A stretch of 64,000 nucleotides of DNA from Clostridium cylindrosporum DSM 605 (GTDB lineage: Bacteria > Bacillota > Clostridia > Clostridiales > Caloramatoraceae). Below are positions 8,861 through 60,587 of the stretch, piece by piece; the stretch's first letter is position 1; every line of letters begins with the position of its first letter. The translations under genes were made by a program, and so were the position numbers. The stretch spans positions 310,001 through 374,000 of the forward strand of contig NZ_LFVU01000028.1 in assembly GCF_001047375.1 (NCBI RefSeq), read 5' to 3'. The notes under the pieces were generated by a model that was not told where the DNA came from, made no database searches, and saw only the letters and a list, made by a program, of their open reading frames with translations.

Positions 8861-10128
8861 TTATATATTTACTTTGAATCTATCCTTTTCATAAGGGACA
8901 GCTTTAACATTATCTTCACCTAGTTCTATATTAAGTTCATTTAGAAGTTCACCTGTTATGTTTACTTTCAAATCATCCTTAGCCTTAAGTGGTGTTTTCT
9001 TTCCTGTTTCTTTATTCTCCACAACAATTGTAACTGAACTTAGTCCTTTATACTTTCTAAGTATTGGTTTTATATTGTCTTTTGTTGTTTTCCAGCTAGT
9101 CTCATCTACCCTTACAAATAGCTTTCCGTGAATAGCCTCAGGTGATATAGGTGACACATCATCTATTAGTATCTTTGCTGCTTCTTCCTCTCTAACTGCA
9201 AGCTTTCCACTAACCAGAACTATATTATCTTCAAATACATATCTAGATATTTTTTGGTAAACCTTAGGGAATACAACCCCTTCAATTGTACCATACTTGT
9301 CCTCTAGTTGGATAAATGCCATAATATCATTTTTTCTAGTTGTCTTAATGTTCACACCTGATATGATTGCTCCAAGAGATATACTAGTTCCATCTTTTAG
9401 CTTAGTTTCAAATTCTTCATCATCACCTGTTACATGAATAATGTCTGAAACCTTAGCACTTGCATAGTAGTCTACTACTTCTTGACATTCATCAATTGGA
9501 TGTCCACTAATATATAGTCCTGTCATTTCCTTCTCCATAGATAAAATGTCTCTTTTGCTAAATTCTCTAGCTTCCCTAAATTCATCTCTGTATAGATCCT
9601 CTTCACTTTGACCTGACTGCACAGCAAAAAGTGATATTTGTCCTTCTATATTATTCTTTCTATCATTTACAGAGCCTTCAATAACTCTTTCATAAACCTC
9701 AAGTAATGTAGAGCGTGATGATTTAAATGAATCAAAGGCACCTGCCTTAATCATACTTTCTACTGCCCTTTTGTTAATATGAGTAAAGTCAGCTTTTCTA
9801 CAAAAATGAGTAAATGATATAAAGTTACCTATCTTCTCTCTGGTTTCTATGATAGATTCTATTGCATTTTTGCCTACATTTTTCACCGCTGCAAGTCCAA
9901 ATCTTATCTTGTCTCCTGAAACTGAGAAATTAACATAACTTTCATTAACATCAGGTGGAAGAACTTCTATACCCATTTTCCTACAAGCATCAATATAAAA
10001 GGCAACTTTTTCGTTGCTTCCCATAACACTTGTTAGTAGGGCACTAAAATATTCCACAGGATAGTACCTTCTAAGGTATGCTGTTTGATAACCAACTACC
10101 GCATAGGCAGCTGCATGGGATTTATTGA
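8861..10128 (-). CDS. dnaE: dnaE exon 4 (residues 750-1171)
   Basis: It begins with the last two bases of a Phe codon, then [20 protein letters not shown], the conserved fingers segment, followed by helix-hairpin-helix ([16 protein letters not shown]), the zinc-less linker ISGHPID and an OB fold ([20 protein letters not shown]). It ends at a TAA before the hairpin at 8812-8847. Confidence 0.92.
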
Positions 10129-13100
10129 CATTTAGTTTATGTAGGGTTCTTTATCCCTACTCTTTATATTTCTATAAAGTATCGGACTATATCATTACCC
10201 ATAGATATGGGTACAGGGCACTCGTGGAAAAATTTATTGATAGGCTTCTCATTTTTCTAGTCTCTGAACCTTCTTCCATACTTTTATGCCATTTTGGAAG
10301 CTTGGCTGCGGATTAACCAATTCTTAGAATTTTTACTACCATCAGAATTACCCTTTGCCCTTATTTTATTACTAAAATAAGTTAGTATCTAAGACTCTAA
10401 GGTCTTCCCCGCAATTCACCCTGTTTACTTTATGAATTACTTCATAAAGGCACTCTTTATTTCTAGCCATAGTTTAAACGAATGCATAACTTGCAAAATC
10501 CATCATTAAATCAAACAGCTTATTAGCAACATCTTCAGATACACCACGTCTTATAGCACCTTCTATTATGATGTTGCCACTTTCATCTTCTAATCCATAA
10601 ATAAAGTTTTTTCTTTCCTCTTCCATTACATCATGCTTTTTCTTAGACATTGCACGACGTACAAGGTCAGATCTCCCTAGTGAATACCCACCTATATCTC
10701 TAACTATTTGCATTACCTGTTCTTGGTAAACCATTACTATTTTTTTAAAATTATACATAATTGCATCTATTCCAACATCTTACACTTATGTTATTTTTAA
10801 AGTGTTCAATTAGGTTCGTTACTCCTAACCAGTTCTCAGACTACTTAATCATGAACTTCTTATGCTTTCACATAAGTACAGACTATATCACCATCCATAC
10901 TGGATGCTCCCCATTTCCCTAGACTTCTAGGTACTCTCTTTCGAGATAGTCGTTGAAGGTTCTCCTATTCGGAGCTTCCCTGCTGATTATCCATTGTTTT
11001 AGCACTTAGGATTTAACCCTATGCAATCCTAACTATTTTTTCTACTTTCGTAACCATCACACTCAACTTTATTTCATGATCATGTTGTGGTTAGTTAGGC
11101 TTTAGGAACTTCCAGCAATTAAAGGAGTTTTGGATGAATTTAATTCATCCTTCTGTACTCTTTATGAATACAGGGAGCTTTTGTATTAACAAAAATACAC
11201 TTAATTAAATTGTGACTTAATATATTTTTGACAACTATTTAGTTGCTCCATAGGTAACTTCTAATATAGGCTTTAGTTTTTCATCTAGATATTCAACTTT
11301 ATCTGGATTATTCTTATTCTTAATATAGGTTGGAATTTCATCCATAGGGCCTGGTCTATAAAGTGATATTCCCGCGATTACGTCTTCTAGTGAGTCTGGC
11401 TTTAGTTCTTTCATGAAGCTTGTCATACCTCTAGATTCTAGCTGGAATATCCCTTCAGTTTGCCCTTGACTTATCATCTCATATACGCTTTTATCTTCAT
11501 AGTCTATATTATCAAGATCAATGTCTATTCCCTTACTTTTCTTAATAAGATCTACTGCATCCCTTAGAACTGTTAATGTTCTAAGACCAAGGAAGTCCAT
11601 CTTAAGAAGACCTAACTCCTCTAGAGTTCCCATTGGAAACTGAGTTACTATTGTGTTATCATTTTTAGCAACTGGAACATGATCTGTTAAATCTTCTTTA
11701 GATATAACTACACCTGCAGCGTGGGTAGATGAATGTCTAGGAAGTCCCTCTAGAGATTTTGATATATCTATTAAGGTTCTTACTCTTTCATTTATTTCAT
11801 ATTCCTCTTTAAGCTCTTTATTAGCACTTAGCGCCTTATCTATTGTCATATATAGCTCAGTTGGAATCATCTTTGCTATTTTATCCACCTCTGCGTATGA
11901 ATAATTTAGTGCACGTCCAACATCTCTTATAGCAGCCTTTGCTGCCATAGTTCCAAAGGTAACAATTTGCGCTACTCTTTCAGATCCATATTTCTCAACT
12001 ACATAATCGATTACTTCTTGACGTCTTTCATAACAAAAGTCAGAATCAATATCTGGCATGGAAATTCTTTCTGGATTTAAGAACATTTGTTATTATCCAT
12101 AGGCTCTTTATCCTATGTTCTGGAGGTTTCCCTCATTTTCATCAGTTAGTTAATTCTAACTCAGATTGGACTATATCATCTCAACAAACAATTAGTCTAT
12201 TGAGCTGGGCACTCGTGGAGGAAGTTATTGTTTGGCTACTCATCCCTCTAGTCTCTGAACCTTTCTAGTAACTTTATGCCATTCCCAGACTTGGCTGCTG
12301 ATTAGCATACTTATTTTAAGCTTAGCTTTCCAGCAATTCACCCAGTTTAACGAGCGCATCTTAATTCACGCTCAAATATTAGATTATATTTGATAGGGTC
12401 TATTTTCGTTATACCAAGTGTATAAGCAACAATAGATCCCGCACCTGACCCTCTTCCAGGGCCTGTTACTATGCCTTTTTCGTTTGCAAATCTTATGAAA
12501 TCCCATACAATTAAGAAATAATCAACATACCCCATTTGTTCAATTACTGATAATTCATAGTTAAGTCTTTCTTCTTCTACCTCAGTAACATCTTCATATA
12601 GTCTATGAAGTCCTTCTCTACATAAATGTCTCAGATATTCATCTGAAGTGAAGCCTTCAGGTGTATCGAACTTAGGTAAATGTGTTACATTAAAGTCAAA
12701 TTCAACATTGCACATATCTGCGATCTTCTGTGTGTTTTCGATTGCTTCACTTGCTTCTGGAAATAAACTTCTCATTTCCTCCTCTGACTTTAGGTAGAAT
12801 TCATTACTTTCAAATTCTAACCTATCAGGGTCATCTATAGTCTTTCCTGTCTGGATACACACAAGTATTTCATGTGCCTTTGAATCATCCTTTTCTATAT
12901 AGTGAACATCATTAGTTGCAACTAATGGGATTCCTGTTTCCTGAGATAGCTTTATAAGTATTTTATTTACCTTTTTCTGCTCCTCCATACCATGGTCTTG
13001 AAGTTCTAGATAAAAGTTCCCTTTGCCGAAGATTTCTTCATATAGCAGAGCCTTTTTCTTAGCCTCTTCATAATTATCTTTCAGAAGATGCTGCTGAACC

Positions 13101-13522
13101 TCTCCTCCAAGGCAAGCACTTAGGGCTATAATATCCTTAGAGTATTTTCTTAGATTCTCATAATCTATTCTTGGCTTATAGTAGAAACCATCAACATATG
13201 CCATTGAATCTATTTTCATTAGATTCTTATATCCTTCGTTATTTTTAGCAAGAAGTATTAGATGATAGTTCGCGGCATCCTGCTTACCCTCTTTTAAGGT
13301 TAACTCCCTTGGTGCCACATATATCTCACATCCAAGTACAGGCTTAATTCCTTCTTTTTTACACGCTTTATAAAAATCTATAATCCCAAACATAACTCCA
13401 TGGTCAGTTAATGCTAGTGAATTCATCCCAAGTTCCTTCGCCTTTTTTGGAAGAACTTTAACCCTTGATGATCCATCTAGTAGACTGTATTCACTATGAA
13501 CATGAAGATGTACAAAACTCAT
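8861..13522 (-). CDS. dnaE: DNA polymerase III subunit alpha, split by three group I introns
   Basis: The gene reads as four exons on the minus strand: 13522-12368, 12083-11246, 10736-10482 and 10128-8861. Joined they give 3516 nt and 1171 residues, the normal clostridial DnaE length, with no frameshift or internal stop. Seen in the joined protein: a PHP domain (about 1-210, [15 protein letters not shown]), the polymerase core with aspartates D396 and D398 in MPDIDSDF and D548 in [10 protein letters not shown], then fingers, helix-hairpin-helix and an OB fold in exon 4. The intervening sequences have group I cores and in-frame stops, so DnaE needs RNA splicing. ATG follows AGGTGATG; it starts 8 nt after the ytoI-like gene, implying cotranscription. 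Low-GC Firmicutes usually also carry PolC, which is not in this window. Confidence 0.93.
10129..10481 (-). ncRNA. Group I intron 3 in dnaE (353 nt, no ORF)
   Basis: Core elements: P (GGGTGAATTGCGGGGAA, 10421-10405), Q (AATCCGCAGCCAAGC, 10314-10300), R (GGTTCAGAGACTA, 10270-10258) and S (GATATAGTCC, 10193-10184). The exon end GCAT (10485-10482) pairs with GTGC (10453-10450), with the U-G wobble at the cleavage site and P1 extending into the intron (TC with GA). A P2 hairpin CTTTATGAA/TTCATAAAG follows. The intron ends ...AAATG with G at 10129, and splicing joins GCA-T to TC-AAT as A-F-N, restoring [13 protein letters not shown]. It shares R, S, CCACGAGTGCCC and other core blocks with intron 1. 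Confidence 0.92.
10482..10736 (-). CDS. dnaE: dnaE exon 3 (residues 665-750)
   Basis: It encodes [29 protein letters not shown] and DFASYA, the fingers region that binds the incoming nucleotide in DnaE. It ends with T at 10482, the first base of a Phe codon completed by exon 4. An ATG at 10758 in frame comes from intron sequence and is not thought to be used as a start. Confidence 0.88.
10737..11245 (-). ncRNA. Group I intron 2 in dnaE (about 509 nt, no ORF, different lineage)
   Basis: Core elements: P (AATTGCTGGAAG, 11120-11109), Q (AATCAGCAGGGAAGC, 10988-10974), R (AACCTTCAACGACTA, 10961-10947) and S (GATATAGTCT, 10889-10880). The R form TTCAACGACTA and the hairpin TCTCGAAAGAGA after it differ from introns 1 and 3 and resemble IA-type introns. 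Several hairpins precede P, including GGATGAAT/ATTCATCC. Boundaries come from protein homology: TAT-GGA-G joins TA-ATG-GTT to give Y-G-V-M-V. The intron then ends in G, but the base before the 5' site is G instead of U; GGAG plus the first intron C could pair with GCTCC at 11178-11174. Alternative sites are possible, so the exact ends are uncertain. Confidence 0.8.
11246..12083 (-). CDS. dnaE: dnaE exon 2 (residues 386 to first base of 665)
   Basis: It encodes the catalytic palm of the polymerase: MPDIDSDF with the two metal-binding aspartates right at the exon start, [10 protein letters not shown] with the third, and [10 protein letters not shown]. The last recognisable homology is ILEVTYG, where family members continue with (V/I)MVYQEQVM. 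The 3' end is set at 11246 so that the frame and the expected Gly-Val-Met-Val join. Confidence 0.85.
12084..12367 (-). ncRNA. Group I intron 1 in dnaE (284 nt, no ORF)
   Basis: Self-splicing intron of group I type. Core elements in transcript order: P (GGGTGAATTGCTGGAAA, 12343-12327), Q (AATCAGCAGCCAAGTC, 12303-12288), R (GGTTCAGAGACTA, 12261-12249) and S (GATATAGTCC, 12177-12168); R GACTA pairs with S TAGTC to form P7. The exon end GAGCGT (12373-12368) pairs with the internal guide GCGCTC (12357-12352), five Watson-Crick pairs plus the U-G wobble at the cleavage site. The intron ends in G (12084). The next exon bases TCTTAA can pair with TTAAGA just before the guide (P10). Exons join in frame as FER-FLN. 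No homing endonuclease is encoded. The junctions are inferred, not measured. Confidence 0.93.
12368..13522 (-). CDS. dnaE: dnaE exon 1 (residues 1-385)
   Basis: It encodes the PHP domain and the start of the palm, ending at IFER, where DnaE homologues continue with [13 protein letters not shown]. The exon ends in T at 12368, in phase 0. If intron 1 is not removed, translation adds only six residues (ELRCAR) before a TAA, giving a 391-residue protein without polymerase active site. Confidence 0.92.
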
Positions 13523-22599: not shown

Positions 22600-22822
22600 G
22601 TGAGGTTTGTGTGATTCAAGCAGTGGTATTAATAGCTAAAACGACGAGACGTCGAAGAGAGCTTCTTATCTATAAAAATACCCCTAGGCTTAGCAAAGCA
22701 GCCTGTTTGAGCTGAAAGCGAGTTTGCGCTTTGCTTAGTCTAGGGGTATTTTTGTAGATAAGAATGTCTTCTTGAAGATCTCATCGTTTTCGGTAGATAC
22801 ATCGCTACTTGCATAACCTCAC
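22600..22822. repeat. 223-bp imperfect palindrome, MITE-like
   Basis: The ends are perfect inverted repeats (GTGAGGTT at 22600, AACCTCAC at 22815-22822), and the arms pair imperfectly along most of their length. The inner arms are nearly perfect: 22664-22699 against 22728-22764, about 36 nt with a few mismatches, around a 28-nt loop. The outer arms (around 22634-22660 with 22765-22792) match less well. It has no ORF and is richer in GC than its flanks. It lies just after the stop codon of the NapH-like gene, so a transcript would fold into one long hairpin. A miniature inverted-repeat element or an RNA stability/termination element both fit. Confidence 0.75.
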
Positions 22823-22836
22823 TCTTACTAGAGAAG

Positions 22837-23475
22837 TTAATATTTTATCGCCTTAGTTGGACATACACTAGCGCATTTCCCACATTGTATACAATCAGGA
22901 TGACTTAGAAGATCTCCCTTATATTCATATGGAACTATTCCAAGTGAGCATTTCTTCTCACATACTTTACATGATACACAACTTGATGATACATGAAGTA
23001 CCTTATCACTTTTTCTAAATCTTGATACAAAGGATGCTATACTTCCCATTGGGCAAAAATTACACCATACCCTGTGGTTATAGAAAAAGGATAAAACTAT
23101 TGCTATTACAGTAGTTATAAAAATTATTCTATAAAAAACCATTCCGATTCCATATAGGTCTCCCCAATTTCTAATAACTCCTAGAGTAAATACTGTAAAC
23201 ATTACAATCATTACTAGAATTCTAAAAAAGTTAGATTTTAAAAACTTAGGTGTTTTTCTTTTATTGCTAAATTTATATAGGATATTATCATAAAAGTTTC
23301 CTCTAGGACAGAGATTTCCACACCAGAATCTACCTTTAAATAAAGACACTACTATAGGAGCAATCATACAAACAACTGCCACTAATGCAAATCTTAAATC
23401 TACTAAACCAACAAACATAAAAGCTATTAATAGTGTAAATGAATACTTCTTCCATATCTTCAAAAACTTATCCAT
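22837..23475 (-). CDS. NapH-like membrane 4Fe-4S ferredoxin
   Basis: A protein of 212 residues. Four membrane helices carry two CxxxCP motifs on loops (WCGNLCPRG and WCNFCPMG), as in NapH/NosR/CcoG-like electron-transfer proteins. The C-terminus has two 4Fe-4S ferredoxin motifs: CVSCKVCEKKC and CIQCGKCASVCP. It would pass electrons across or along the membrane. The ATG follows GGAGGGG. It is divergent from the ArsR/CoA-disulfide reductase operon and shares a promoter region with it, which suggests joint control and a role in sulfur redox, but the partner enzyme is not known. Confidence 0.85.
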   Translation of the reverse strand: MDKFLKIWKKYSFTLLIAFMFVGLVDLRFALVAVVCMIAPIVVSLFKGRFWCGNLCPRGNFYDNILYKFSNKRKTPKFLKSNFFRILVMIVMFTVFTLGVIRNWGDLYGIGMVFYRIIFITTVIAIVLSFFYNHRVWCNFCPMGSIASFVSRFRKSDKVLHVSSSCVSCKVCEKKCSLGIVPYEYKGDLLSHPDCIQCGKCASVCPTKAIKY

Positions 23476-23514
23476 AAAAATCCCCTCCATAATTATTTAA
23501 TCTTGTTAATTTGA

Positions 23515-23640
23515 TTAAATCATAATATCATAATATCATAATATTACAATATATAAATATAGAGATTTGTATTTTTTATTTAAATCTATTGAATATCTCA
23601 ACGTTATATCGTAATATATAAATATAATAATATAAACAAA
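23515..23640. promoter_or_regulatory. Divergent control region with repeated AT-rich operator-like boxes
   Basis: The box AATATATAAATATA occurs twice in the same orientation, at about 23550 and 23610, and short CATAATAT units are repeated three times at 23520-23545. Placed between an ArsR-type regulator and a divergent gene, these are good candidates for ArsR operators. The assignment rests on position and repetition only. Confidence 0.5.
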
Positions 23641-23664
23641 TATGGATTTAAGAGAGGTAAACCT

Positions 23665-23955
23665 ATGGATAAAGATTTTATGAAATACAATGAAAAAGCT
23701 GAACTCCTTAAGGTATTAGCACACCCTGTAAGACTATGTATTGTTATGGGGTTATCAGAGGTTGGAACCTGCAATGTTAGTCATATGCAAGATTGTCTTA
23801 AAATACCTCAGTCTACTCTATCACAGCATATACAAAAATTAAGAACTGCAGGAATTATTGAAGGAACAAGAAATGGCCTTGAAATTAACTATAAAGTTTG
23901 TAATCCAATAGTTCCTAAATTAATTGAGGCTCTATTTGACTTAAATAATCTTTAA
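23665..23955 (+). CDS. ArsR-family regulator with four cysteines
   Basis: A protein of 96 residues, a single winged helix: KAELLKVLAHPVRLCIVMGL, then LKIPQSTLSQHIQKLRTAGI as recognition helix, and a wing TRNGLEINYKV. Cysteines are at 25, 36, 44 and 79. The usual metal motif of ArsR (ELCVCDL) is absent. With a sulfur-transfer enzyme next to it, a persulfide- or thiol-sensing role like that of SqrR/BigR is reasonable, though the cysteine positions do not obviously match. It starts after AGAGAGG and precedes the fusion enzyme by 60 nt. Confidence 0.85.
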   Translation: MDKDFMKYNEKAELLKVLAHPVRLCIVMGLSEVGTCNVSHMQDCLKIPQSTLSQHIQKLRTAGIIEGTRNGLEINYKVCNPIVPKLIEALFDLNNL

Positions 23956-24015
23956 AAATAAATTCATTCTATTATACAAATAATACTATTAGATAATTAC
24001 AAGGAGGACTTTTTT

Positions 24016-26490
24016 ATGGGTAAGAAGGTATTAATTGTCGGGGGAATTGCAGGAGGAGCGTCTACTGCTGCAAGACTAAGAAGACTAGATGAAAATGCTG
24101 AAATAATAATGTTCGAAAGAGATGAATATATCTCCTTTGCAAACTGTGGACTTCCTTACTACATAGGTGAAACAATTAAGGAAAGACAAAAACTCCTAAT
24201 TCAAACACCTGAAAGCATGAGCAAAAGATTTAACATAGATGTAAGAATTAATAGCGAAGTTATAGGTATTGATCCAAATAAAAAAGTAGTTAAAGTAAAA
24301 AGTAAAGATAATGGGACTTATGAGGAAAGCTATGATTATATAGTATTATCTCCTGGTGCAAAGGCTATAAAGCCAAATATTGAAGGTATAGATAGTAATA
24401 AGATTTTCACATTAAGAAATATACCTGATACAGATAGAATCAAGTCATATGTTGATCAAAAGGATGTAAACTCTGCTATCGTTATTGGTGGTGGTTATGT
24501 AGGTGTTGAAATGGCTGAAAACCTAAAGGAAAAGGGACTAAATGTTACCTTAGTTGAAGCTGCACCGCATATTCTTTCACCATTTGATTCAGATATTATA
24601 GTTACAGCTGAAAAGGAACTTGAAGACAATGGAGTAAGTTTAATTCTAAATGATGGAGTTAAATCCTTTAATGATGCTAACAATAGCATCGAGGTGACTC
24701 TTAACAGTAACAAAAAAATTACTGCTGACTTAGTGATTCTTGCAATTGGTGTAACCCCTGATACTAGCTTTATAAAGGATAGCGGCATAAAACTTGGTGC
24801 TAAAGGCCATATACTAGTTAATGATAAAATGGAAACAAACATTGAAAATATATATGCTGTAGGAGATGCTATTGAAGTTGTTGACTTTGTTAACAAACAG
24901 AATACAGCAATACCATTAGCAGGACCTGCTAATAAGCAAGGAAGAATTGCTGCTGATAATATATGTGGACTAAATACTACATATAAAGGTACTCAAGGAA
25001 CTTCTATAATTAAAGTTTTCGGTTTAACAGCTGCAAGTACAGGAAATAATGAAAGAACTCTAAAGAGACTTAATGTGCCTTACAAGGTTATTTATGTTCA
25101 TCCTGCATCACATGCAACATACTATCCTGGTGCTATGCCTCTAACATTAAAGCTTATATTTAATGACAAAGGCAAGATTTTAGGCGCTCAATCCATAGGA
25201 TATGATGGTGTAGATAAAAGAATTGATGTTATCGCGACTACTATGAGACTAGGTGGTACAGTACAGGACCTTACAGAACTTGAACTTTCCTATGCACCAC
25301 CATTCTCCTCAGCTAAAGATCCTGTAAATATGGCTGGTTATGTAGCTGAAAATGTTCTTTCTGGAAAAACAGATATACTTACTCCAGAGGAATATCTAGA
25401 ATATGATAAAGAAAATACTATTTTATTAGATGTACGTACAGAAATGGAATTTAATAATGGTCATATTGAGGGAGCTGTAAATATTCCTGTAGATGATTTA
25501 AGAAATCGTATTAATGAATTAGACAAGAATAAGGAAATTATTGAATACTGTCAGGTTGGTCTTAGAGGCCATGTTGCATCACGTATACTTTCTCAACATG
25601 GATTTAAGGTTAGGAATATAACTGGAGGTTATAAAAGTGCTTTGAGCTTAGACTCTATTCCTAAGAAATCTAACAATAACACTGATTCTAAAAAGCCAGT
25701 AATAAATCCAGATACTCAAACAGTAGAATCTGAAGTAGCTTTAGACAGTATAACCTTCGATAAATCTCTAGATGCCTGTGGACTTTGTTGCCCTGGTCCA
25801 CTTGTACAGGTAAAATCATCTATGGATTCCCTTAATGAAGGTGAGGTTCTTAAGGTATCTGCAACTGACCCTGGATTTTATGAAGATATAAAATCATGGT
25901 GCCACCATACAGATTCTGAACTTATTAATGTAAGTAAGGATAAGGGAACAATTACAGCTTTCATAAAAAAAAACAATAACAACTCTAAACTAGATAACAC
26001 TAATGCTAATCTAACTACTAAGGACAACAAAACCATGGTTGTATTTAGTGGTGACCTCGATAAAGCCATAGCTTCATTTATAATAGCAAATGGTGCTGCT
26101 TCAATGGGTAAGAAAGTTACTATGTTCTTTACATTTTGGGGGTTAAATATTCTTAGAAAACACGAGAAAGTATCTGTTAAAAAAGGCTTTATGGACTCTA
26201 TGTTTGGCCTTATGATGCCAAGAGGAAGTAAGAAACTTAAGCTATCCAACATGAATATGATGGGTATGGGTGCTAAAATGATAAGAATGGTTATGAAAAA
26301 TAAAAACGTAACTTCCCTTGAAGACCTAATTAAACTTGCCATGAATAATGGAGTGGAAATTGTTGCTTGCCAAATGTCAATGGACGTTATGGGACTAAAG
26401 AAGGATGAACTTATTGACGGAGTTAAAATAGGTGGAGTTGGCTACTATTTAGGTGAGGCTGAGGACTCTAACGTAAACCTATTTATATAA
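24016..26490 (+). CDS. CoA-disulfide reductase fused to rhodanese, TusA and DsrE-like domains
   Basis: A protein of 824 residues with four modules. (1) A flavin CoA-disulfide/persulfide reductase (1-450): GGIAGGASTAARLRR for FAD, catalytic C44 in FANCGLPYY, GGGYVGVEMAENL for NAD(P)H and VGDAIEVVDF. (2) A rhodanese (about 455-545) with active cysteine in EYCQVGLRGH. (3) A TusA sulfur carrier (about 585-655) with ACGLCCPGPLVQVK. (4) A DsrE-family domain (about 670-824) with VVFSGDLDKAIASFIIANGA and a possible active cysteine in EIVACQMSM. Together these can take a persulfide, hand the sulfur between cysteines and reduce it with NAD(P)H, acting in the cytosol. Similar fusions are known in Firmicutes. 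It is probably controlled by the adjoining ArsR protein. Confidence 0.92.
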   Translation: MGKKVLIVGGIAGGASTAARLRRLDENAEIIMFERDEYISFANCGLPYYIGETIKERQKLLIQTPESMSKRFNIDVRINSEVIGIDPNKKVVKVKSKDNGTYEESYDYIVLSPGAKAIKPNIEGIDSNKIFTLRNIPDTDRIKSYVDQKDVNSAIVIGGGYVGVEMAENLKEKGLNVTLVEAAPHILSPFDSDIIVTAEKELEDNGVSLILNDGVKSFNDANNSIEVTLNSNKKITADLVILAIGVTPDTSFIKDSGIKLGAKGHILVNDKMETNIENIYAVGDAIEVVDFVNKQNTAIPLAGPANKQGRIAADNICGLNTTYKGTQGTSIIKVFGLTAASTGNNERTLKRLNVPYKVIYVHPASHATYYPGAMPLTLKLIFNDKGKILGAQSIGYDGVDKRIDVIATTMRLGGTVQDLTELELSYAPPFSSAKDPVNMAGYVAENVLSGKTDILTPEEYLEYDKENTILLDVRTEMEFNNGHIEGAVNIPVDDLRNRINELDKNKEIIEYCQVGLRGHVASRILSQHGFKVRNITGGYKSALSLDSIPKKSNNNTDSKKPVINPDTQTVESEVALDSITFDKSLDACGLCCPGPLVQVKSSMDSLNEGEVLKVSATDPGFYEDIKSWCHHTDSELINVSKDKGTITAFIKKNNNNSKLDNTNANLTTKDNKTMVVFSGDLDKAIASFIIANGAASMGKKVTMFFTFWGLNILRKHEKVSVKKGFMDSMFGLMMPRGSKKLKLSNMNMMGMGAKMIRMVMKNKNVTSLEDLIKLAMNNGVEIVACQMSMDVMGLKKDELIDGVKIGGVGYYLGEAEDSNVNLFI

Positions 26491-26517: not shown

Positions 26518-26556
26518 AAAAGGGTTAGAGATATCATCTTATCTCTAACCCTTTGT
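26518..26556. terminator. Bidirectional terminator between the fusion gene and trmB
   Basis: AAAGGGTTAGAGATA pairs perfectly with TATCTCTAACCCTTT, with A and T runs on both sides. It serves two convergent genes. Confidence 0.85.
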
Positions 26557-59390: not shown

Positions 59391-60587
59391 ATGGAAAATA
59401 TAATGGATTTTGTACTTCAGGTAGGTATAATCTTAGTAGTTGGAGAAGTTCTTGGTGTAATAAGTCAAAAACTTAAAATGCCAAAGGTATTAGGATTTTT
59501 ACTTTCGGGTATAGTAATAGGCCCATCGATGTTTAATATTGTTCATGAAAATGAGCCTATAAAAGTTTTAGCTCAAATAGGAGTTATCTTCCTAATGTTT
59601 ATGGCTGGACTTGAGACAGACATTGAAAAATTTAAAACAGCTGGTATGTCATCCTTTATAATTGCAATTGGAGGAATTGTTGTTCCATTTTTATTAGGAA
59701 CTGTTGCAACATACCTTTTTACAGGTAGCTTAACAGAAAGTATATTCGTTGGTGTAATATTAACTGCTACAAGCGTTGCTATTACTGTTCAAACTCTAAA
59801 TGAACTTGGCAAGTTAAATACTAGGGCAAGTATTAATATAATAGGAGCTGCAATTATTGATGATATTTTAGGTATTATCATCCTTTCAGTGGCAATTATG
59901 CTAGTAGCACCTAGCGCTTCAGACGCTGCAAGTGCTACTGGATTACTTTTAATACTTGGTAAAATACTTATTTTTATTATTTTATCAGGAATATTATTAA
60001 AATTTCTTCCTGGCATTATCGAAAAATCAATGGAAAATGGAAATAAGAAAAGTAAAACTGAAACCCTTATTTTAATTATAGCTGGTTTAACAATCCTCTT
60101 TTCAATTTTTGTTGAGGAGGCCCTTGGAATCGCAGCAATTACAGGTGCATATGTAATAGGACTTGTAATTGCACTTACTAAGTACAATCATACATTTGAG
60201 GATAAGTTTTCAAATGTATCTACTTACCTAGTTTCACCTATATTCTTTAGTAGTATAGGACTTACACTTAACATTAAAACACTAGGTCCAGAGGTTATAC
60301 TACCAATTATAGTTATATCTATAGCAGCAATTCTAGGTAAAATAATTGGTTGCTCTGGTGCGGCAAAACTCTATGGACTTTCAAGTAAAGAGTGTACTCA
60401 AATTGGTGTAGGTATGATTTCCCGTGGTGAAGTTGCCATTATAACAGCTACCTTAGGGCTTAGTAAAGGTATAATAACTAAGGATATGTATCCAACCTTG
60501 CTTGTAGTTATTATAATTACAACTATTGTCACCCCGCTTCTTCTAAAGATAGTATTCTCAGAAAAAGATTTAAATAAGTCAGTATAA
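59391..60587 (+). CDS. Cation:proton antiporter, CPA2/Kef type
   Basis: A membrane protein of 398 residues with about twelve helices. VGIILVVGEVLGVISQKL, MPKVLGFLLSGIVIGP, the ion-site region IIGAAIIDDILGIIILS with the two adjacent aspartates, and IGVGMISRGEVAIITATLGL are family hallmarks. It exchanges Na+ or K+ for protons at the cytoplasmic membrane; the DD pair suggests electrogenic exchange. No C-terminal TrkA-N domain is present. The ATG follows AAGGAGG. Probably controlled by the attenuator directly upstream. Confidence 0.92.
   Translation: MENIMDFVLQVGIILVVGEVLGVISQKLKMPKVLGFLLSGIVIGPSMFNIVHENEPIKVLAQIGVIFLMFMAGLETDIEKFKTAGMSSFIIAIGGIVVPFLLGTVATYLFTGSLTESIFVGVILTATSVAITVQTLNELGKLNTRASINIIGAAIIDDILGIIILSVAIMLVAPSASDAASATGLLLILGKILIFIILSGILLKFLPGIIEKSMENGNKKSKTETLILIIAGLTILFSIFVEEALGIAAITGAYVIGLVIALTKYNHTFEDKFSNVSTYLVSPIFFSSIGLTLNIKTLGPEVILPIIVISIAAILGKIIGCSGAAKLYGLSSKECTQIGVGMISRGEVAIITATLGLSKGIITKDMYPTLLVVIIITTIVTPLLLKIVFSEKDLNKSV

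Follow-up and report, generated by a model that had tools for sequence, protein, structure and literature searches.

Does a membrane ferredoxin that lies back to back with a repressor and a sulfur-handling enzyme share one regulatory switch with them, and what does that switch respond to? This question is raised by positions 22,837–26,490 of a 64,000-nucleotide (nt) stretch of the anaerobic bacterium Clostridium cylindrosporum DSM 605, below called the window (GCF_001047375.1, contig NZ_LFVU01000028.1, forward strand 310,001–374,000; GTDB lineage Bacteria; Bacillota; Clostridia; Clostridiales; Caloramatoraceae). The original prediction described three genes here, with the membrane ferredoxin divergent from an ArsR regulator, and the open reading frames (ORFs) were confirmed as real. 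The minus strand carries a NapH-like membrane ferredoxin of 217 amino acids (22837..23490), whereas the plus strand carries an ArsR-family repressor of 96 amino acids with the cysteine triad C25/C36/C44 (23665..23955) and, after a gap of 60 base pairs (bp), an 824-amino-acid fusion of coenzyme A (CoA)-disulfide/persulfide reductase, rhodanese, TusA and DsrE2 domains (24016..26490). The evidence favours a regulon under a thiol-based repressor that probably responds to sulfane sulfur, with the membrane ferredoxin as one of its members.

A conserved operator and its targets

Alignment of the DNA upstream of ArsR across distant loci yields a palindrome of approximately ATCGTTATATCGTAATATTRCGATATAACGAT, which was described by a matrix of 34 positions and 43 bits of information with the window excluded from training. 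Scanning with this matrix detects the operator ahead of ArsR at 62 of the 67 other loci. The intergenic region of the window holds two copies, neither assigned a strand: one on the NapH side (TATCATAATATCATAATATTACAATATATAAATA, 23526..23559, score 30.4), located 36–69 bp upstream of the NapH-like start codon, and one on the ArsR side (CAACGTTATATCGTAATATATAAATATAATAATA, 23599..23632, score 30.1). Markov sequences of 64 kb served as the null and reached a maximum of 11.6; apart from these copies and their weaker shifted matches, no site in the 64-kb window exceeds that value. The weaker matches are displaced by 8 bp and flank the operator at 23526–23559.

The ArsR-side copy overlaps the -10 element TAATAT (23612–23617) of the ArsR–fusion promoter, of which the -35 element TTGAAT (23589..23594, plus strand) lies 17 nt ahead. 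The spacing is the same in homologous loci, where the hexamer at the -35 position has at least four of six matches to TTGACA in 41 of 61 cases and is exactly TTGACA in 24 of 61, compared with none of the control positions. The window therefore carries the arrangement that defines the sulfur regulon of the triad-bearing ArsR, a 34-bp palindromic operator over the -10 of the ArsR–fusion promoter. Repeated boxes between the genes had also been predicted, and the repeat itself stands, as the 64 kb contain the 14-mer AATATATAAATATA in exactly two copies (23548 and 23613; expected 0.03; two copies in no shuffle). However, the box was rejected as the functional unit, since it overlaps both operators and is only a part of the 34-bp palindrome that is present twice.

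The own genome was searched with a 3-mismatch pattern, and among the recovered sites, which were then scored with the matrix, only the two window copies score. Across a set of 218 genomes the exact operator pattern has matches in 58, while a reversed control pattern gives two matches in all. Most of the matches precede ArsR–fusion or NapH-like genes. Other targets are single rhodaneses, a CoA-disulfide reductase (CoADR)–rhodanese gene, a CcdA-like membrane protein, ArsR copies and C_GCAxxG_C_C-like genes, and one operator-bearing cluster contains a small thioredoxin-like gene; the names CcdA-like, C_GCAxxG_C_C-like and thioredoxin-like reflect our reading of the sequences and not a profile search. 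This regulon is not described in the literature searched on ArsR, persulfide and CoADR in Clostridium and on NapH with rhodanese.

The three genes had been presented as a standing unit, which was not borne out. Among the loci listed, the NapH-like gene adjoins the fusion in 2–3 of 80, namely in Clostridium paridis, in Pelosinus fermentans JBW45 (approximately 740 bp from ArsR) and in C. ragsdalei (several kilobases away). Judged by adjacency alone, the link to the ferredoxin would be discarded, but the operator test reversed that outcome. Operators with a score of at least 18 lie upstream of 15 of 61 NapH-like genes (14 of 60 without the window), compared with 10 of 859 other genes in the NapH-like loci; of these ten, several use sites already counted or encode ArsR, the fusion or a rhodanese. 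In G110 and G111, which have the closest homologues of the window protein (76–77% identical), the operator precedes a NapH-like gene that is unlinked to the fusion. Furthermore, the operator is found at the NapH-like gene in 14 of 41 genomes with this ArsR and in 0 of 21 without it (p=0.0013), and on the tree the operator state at NapH-like genes must have changed at least five times. The predicted regulatory link to the membrane ferredoxin is thus supported by operators that recur at NapH-like genes elsewhere, only in ArsR-bearing genomes.

Several observations weigh against a common regulon. At the threshold used, 104 of 158 fusion-bearing genomes are without a NapH-like gene, which likewise speaks against a standing unit. 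The co-occurrence of ArsR and operator is confounded by phylogeny, with a single genus (g10) supplying most of the ArsR-less genomes, and the cysteine positions of ArsR are unlike the SqrR/BigR dithiol. In addition, about three quarters of the NapH-like upstream regions are without the operator, and some of these operator-less genes adjoin a CRP/FNR-type regulator.

Operator-less NapH-like genes, among them those of L142, L145, L107, L114 and L119, often lie beside such a CRP/FNR-type regulator or have CoADR, rhodanese, TauE-like and Lgt-like genes in the vicinity, which suggests a second regulatory route. Within 4.5 kb of NapH-like genes, a rhodanese-domain gene is present in 15 of 61 loci and CoADR in 11 of 61. 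As a share of the operator-less genes cluster with sulfur genes, often next to CRP/FNR, more than one regulator seems to tie the NapH-like protein to sulfur handling.

The repressor, the fusion enzyme and the membrane ferredoxin

The identification of ArsR rests on its ORF, profile matches, orthologue conservation and predicted fold. An AlphaFold model gives a winged helix of the ArsR type with a mean predicted local distance difference test (pLDDT) score of 93.4, and the profile 'metalloregulator ArsR/SmtB' is matched with 69 bits, above its cut-off. In 67 of 95 other loci an orthologue is encoded on the same strand at most 1.2 kb upstream of the fusion, over a range that extends from Clostridium to Paenibacillus, Sporomusa and Lachnospiraceae; within the window's own family, the relatives have no ArsR orthologue at that place. 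The protein had been predicted to be a four-cysteine ArsR lacking the usual metal motif. The absence of the motif was confirmed, with CNVSHMQDC in place of ELCVCDLC, the helix 3 motif of classical ArsR arsenic repressors. However, only three of the four cysteines (25, 36, 44 and 79) are conserved among orthologues, with C25 in 66, C36 in 65 and C44 in 67 of 68 and C79 in 17 of 68.

The nearest solved protein in both sequence and fold is PagR (2zkz), followed in the fold comparison by SqrR (TMq 0.79–0.87), HlyU and BigR, among others. An assignment as PagR was rejected, because the match falls far below the PagR equivalog cut-off and the aligned stretch contains none of the cysteine triad. BigR/SqrR was likewise rejected at 66.2 bits versus the 155-bit BigR cut-off and with differing cysteine positions. 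TsoR gave a weak profile match only, and no paper naming both TsoR and ArsR was found in the literature searched. The persulfide sensors SqrR, BigR, SoxR, sHdrR, YgaV and HlyU share with the window protein the ArsR fold, a thiol-based character, which in the latter is putative, and a tie to sulfur genes, but SqrR/BigR-type sensors have two other cysteines in common (PMC12423496). One of them lies in helix 2 and the other close to the C-terminus; in the window protein the first position is occupied by M28, with C25 three residues ahead of it, and the second is not a cysteine, nor is there any cysteine after C79. Since the fold matches PagR, SqrR, HlyU and BigR while the SqrR/BigR cysteines are missing, the window protein is, judged from its sequence, an ArsR repressor with a cysteine set unlike that of SqrR/BigR. 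The sensing chemistry of SqrR/BigR is therefore not transferable to it. Its gene partners indicate that sulfane sulfur is probably what it senses.

The fusion was identified from its ORF, Pfam matches and homologue alignment. As predicted, a single polypeptide joins CoA-disulfide reductase, rhodanese, TusA and DsrE, with four Pfam domains (Pyr_redox_2, 2.4e-64; Rhodanese, 7.8e-18; TusA, 3.8e-20; DrsE_2, 1.2e-65) and all four catalytic cysteines intact. These are C44, the flavin-proximal cysteine of the CoADR domain (SFANCGLPYY, 24145..24147), C512 of the rhodanese domain (YCQVGLRG, 25549..25551), C592 of TusA (CPGP, 25789..25791) and C785 of DsrE2 (ACQMSMDVMG, 26368..26370), all on the plus strand and invariant in 20 homologues. 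The best solved matches are CoADR–rhodanese enzymes that include a CoA-persulfide reductase (PDB 3icr, 3nta and 8a56). By its domains and by C44 and C512 the protein is a putative member of the CoADR–rhodanese persulfide reductases of the Npsr/CoAPR type, and as such would reduce CoA-persulfide or polysulfide with NAD(P)H. The fusion is common, being carried by 158 of 225 genomes of the order, and at least 80 fusion loci were found in genome contigs of Clostridium, Desulfosporosinus, Sporomusa, Pelosinus, Lachnospiraceae and Paenibacillus. It is a known protein type and not new, as BF638R_0572 of Bacteroides fragilis has already been described with the same four domains in identical order (PMC6158253). 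However, the regulator there is the MarR-type BmoR, and no link to ArsR or a NapH-like gene is described (PMC6158253). Neither the ArsR switch nor its link to the membrane ferredoxin turned up in the papers searched.

The NapH-like protein consists of two Fer4_5 segments in a hydrophobic N-terminal part and a C-terminal 2×[4Fe-4S] domain, and each of its 12 ligand cysteines is conserved in 60 or 61 of 61 homologues. It resembles the membrane polyferredoxins of the NapH/MauN family in the CX3CP-type motifs of its membrane part, the second of which reads CX2CP, and in its two C-terminal [4Fe-4S] motifs. In contrast to that type, its score is well under the subfamily cut-off (54.9 versus 213.05 bits, TIGR02163) and no nap genes were recognised nearby. 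The wording 'NapH-like' of the original prediction is therefore the right name.

A candidate sulfane-sulfur switch and its alternatives

All functional claims made here rest on sequence. In the proposed mechanism, ArsR would repress by binding the 34-bp palindrome over its own promoter and the second copy that precedes the divergent NapH-like gene. Accumulation of sulfane sulfur as persulfide or polysulfide would lead to modification or bridging of C25, C36 and C44, upon which ArsR would leave the DNA and so allow expression of the fusion and of the NapH-like gene. In the fusion, DsrE2 and TusA would pass sulfane sulfur via the rhodanese to the CoADR domain, which would reduce (CoA-)persulfide to thiol and sulfide with NAD(P)H and flavin adenine dinucleotide (FAD). 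This relay is drawn by analogy with Enterococcus faecalis CoAPR, a CoADR–rhodanese enzyme that reduces CoA-persulfide by means of cysteines in both its flavin and its rhodanese domain (PMC9405070). The NapH-like protein may supply or drain membrane electrons in the same response; this electron path is the weakest part of the mechanism, although the ligand cysteines are conserved.

An alternative that we regard as unlikely is that the sensor answers mainly to disulfide or oxidant stress (O2, H2O2 or CoA disulfide) and that the fusion is chiefly a CoA-disulfide reductase. The CoADR domain does strongly match CoA-disulfide reductase models, CcdA-like and thioredoxin-like genes lie near operators, and in B. 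fragilis the fusion is controlled by a MarR regulator with ties to oxidative stress (PMC6158253). However, the rhodanese, TusA and DsrE2 domains and the stand-alone rhodaneses of the regulon point to sulfane sulfur, and the E. faecalis enzyme acts on CoA-persulfide (PMC9405070). The conserved triad also invites a metal or metalloid explanation, in which C25, C36 and C44 would make up a three-thiolate site, with the fusion and the NapH-like protein as the answer to metal-caused thiol damage. From general knowledge of the ArsR family, three such cysteines are a plausible ligand set for As(III), Sb(III) or Cd(II), and the metalloregulator profile is matched above its cut-off, but the canonical metal motif is absent and persulfide sensors are among the near structural matches. 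Moreover, among the operator-linked genes inspected, rhodaneses, CoADR, CcdA-like and NapH-like genes were recognised instead of genes for arsenic, antimony or cadmium export or reduction, which leaves a metal sensor decidedly improbable.

It has, finally, to be asked whether the NapH-like gene is a chance neighbour, with an operator-like site that is coincidental or serves ArsR alone. The rarity of adjacency and the frequent location of NapH-like genes elsewhere would fit this, but the strong second operator so close to the NapH-like start, and operators at unlinked NapH-like genes, the nearest homologues included, leave it only a slim chance. The prediction of a sulfane-sulfur-handling enzyme with its own ArsR-type regulator is supported, the operators being conserved, and a sulfane-sulfur-responsive regulon is retained as the preferred reading.

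In Gram-positive bacteria, most persulfide sensing is attributed to CstR-type repressors. CstR is a CsoR-type dithiol repressor that uses C31 and C62 and is not of the window's ArsR type. The CstR-regulated cst-like operon and CoAPR of E. faecalis likewise place a cysteine-based repressor over a CoADR–rhodanese enzyme and rhodaneses, but CoAPR is without the TusA and DsrE2 parts and the operon described contains no NapH-like gene (PMC9405070). Should the ArsR protein sense persulfide, much of the Clostridia and Paenibacilli would rely on another kind of sensor, one whose operator can be read, and the regulon would therefore be predictable genome by genome. Such an operator would also make a widespread NapH-like membrane ferredoxin accessible through its regulation, for which we know of no earlier handle. 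Held tentatively, at somewhat less than even confidence, is the broader idea that C25/C36/C44 represents a third cysteine arrangement for sulfane-sulfur sensing by ArsR proteins, in a Firmicutes-wide regulon with its own operator; recruitment of a membrane ferredoxin into this regulon would couple the reduction or export of persulfide to a membrane electron carrier in fermenting anaerobes.

Origin of the block and other elements of the window

The block appears to have been acquired horizontally from Clostridiaceae, which is the simplest reading because fusion, ArsR and NapH-like protein match Clostridiaceae best while the UvrC encoded in the window has its closest match in its own family (66%). 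The fusion is 54–60% identical to own-family copies and 83% to a Clostridiaceae copy, ArsR is 82% identical to that of C. oryzae, and the NapH-like protein reaches 77%. On the tree the fusion falls inside Clostridium sequences with the own-family copies outside, which rejects the latter as the source of the locus.

A terminator-like hairpin of 15 pairs lies 3' of the fusion (26519..26554, both strands). The gap that separates the NapH-like gene from its neighbour contains a palindromic element of approximately 150 bp (22640–22790), which has about ten diverged copies elsewhere in the genome and looks like a small mobile or miniature inverted-repeat transposable element (MITE)-like repeat. Elsewhere in the window, dnaE (8861–13522, minus strand) contains three group I introns (Rfam RF00028; 12146–12397, 10859–11177 and 10162–10491; 75–91 bits) with readable exons between them, a number that looks unusual for one housekeeping gene. 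A Na+ riboswitch (RF03071, 59282–59335) lies just ahead of a cation/proton antiporter-like gene (59391–60587), and a PyrR binding site (RF00515, 43428–43554, minus strand) precedes the carbamoyl-phosphate synthase genes.

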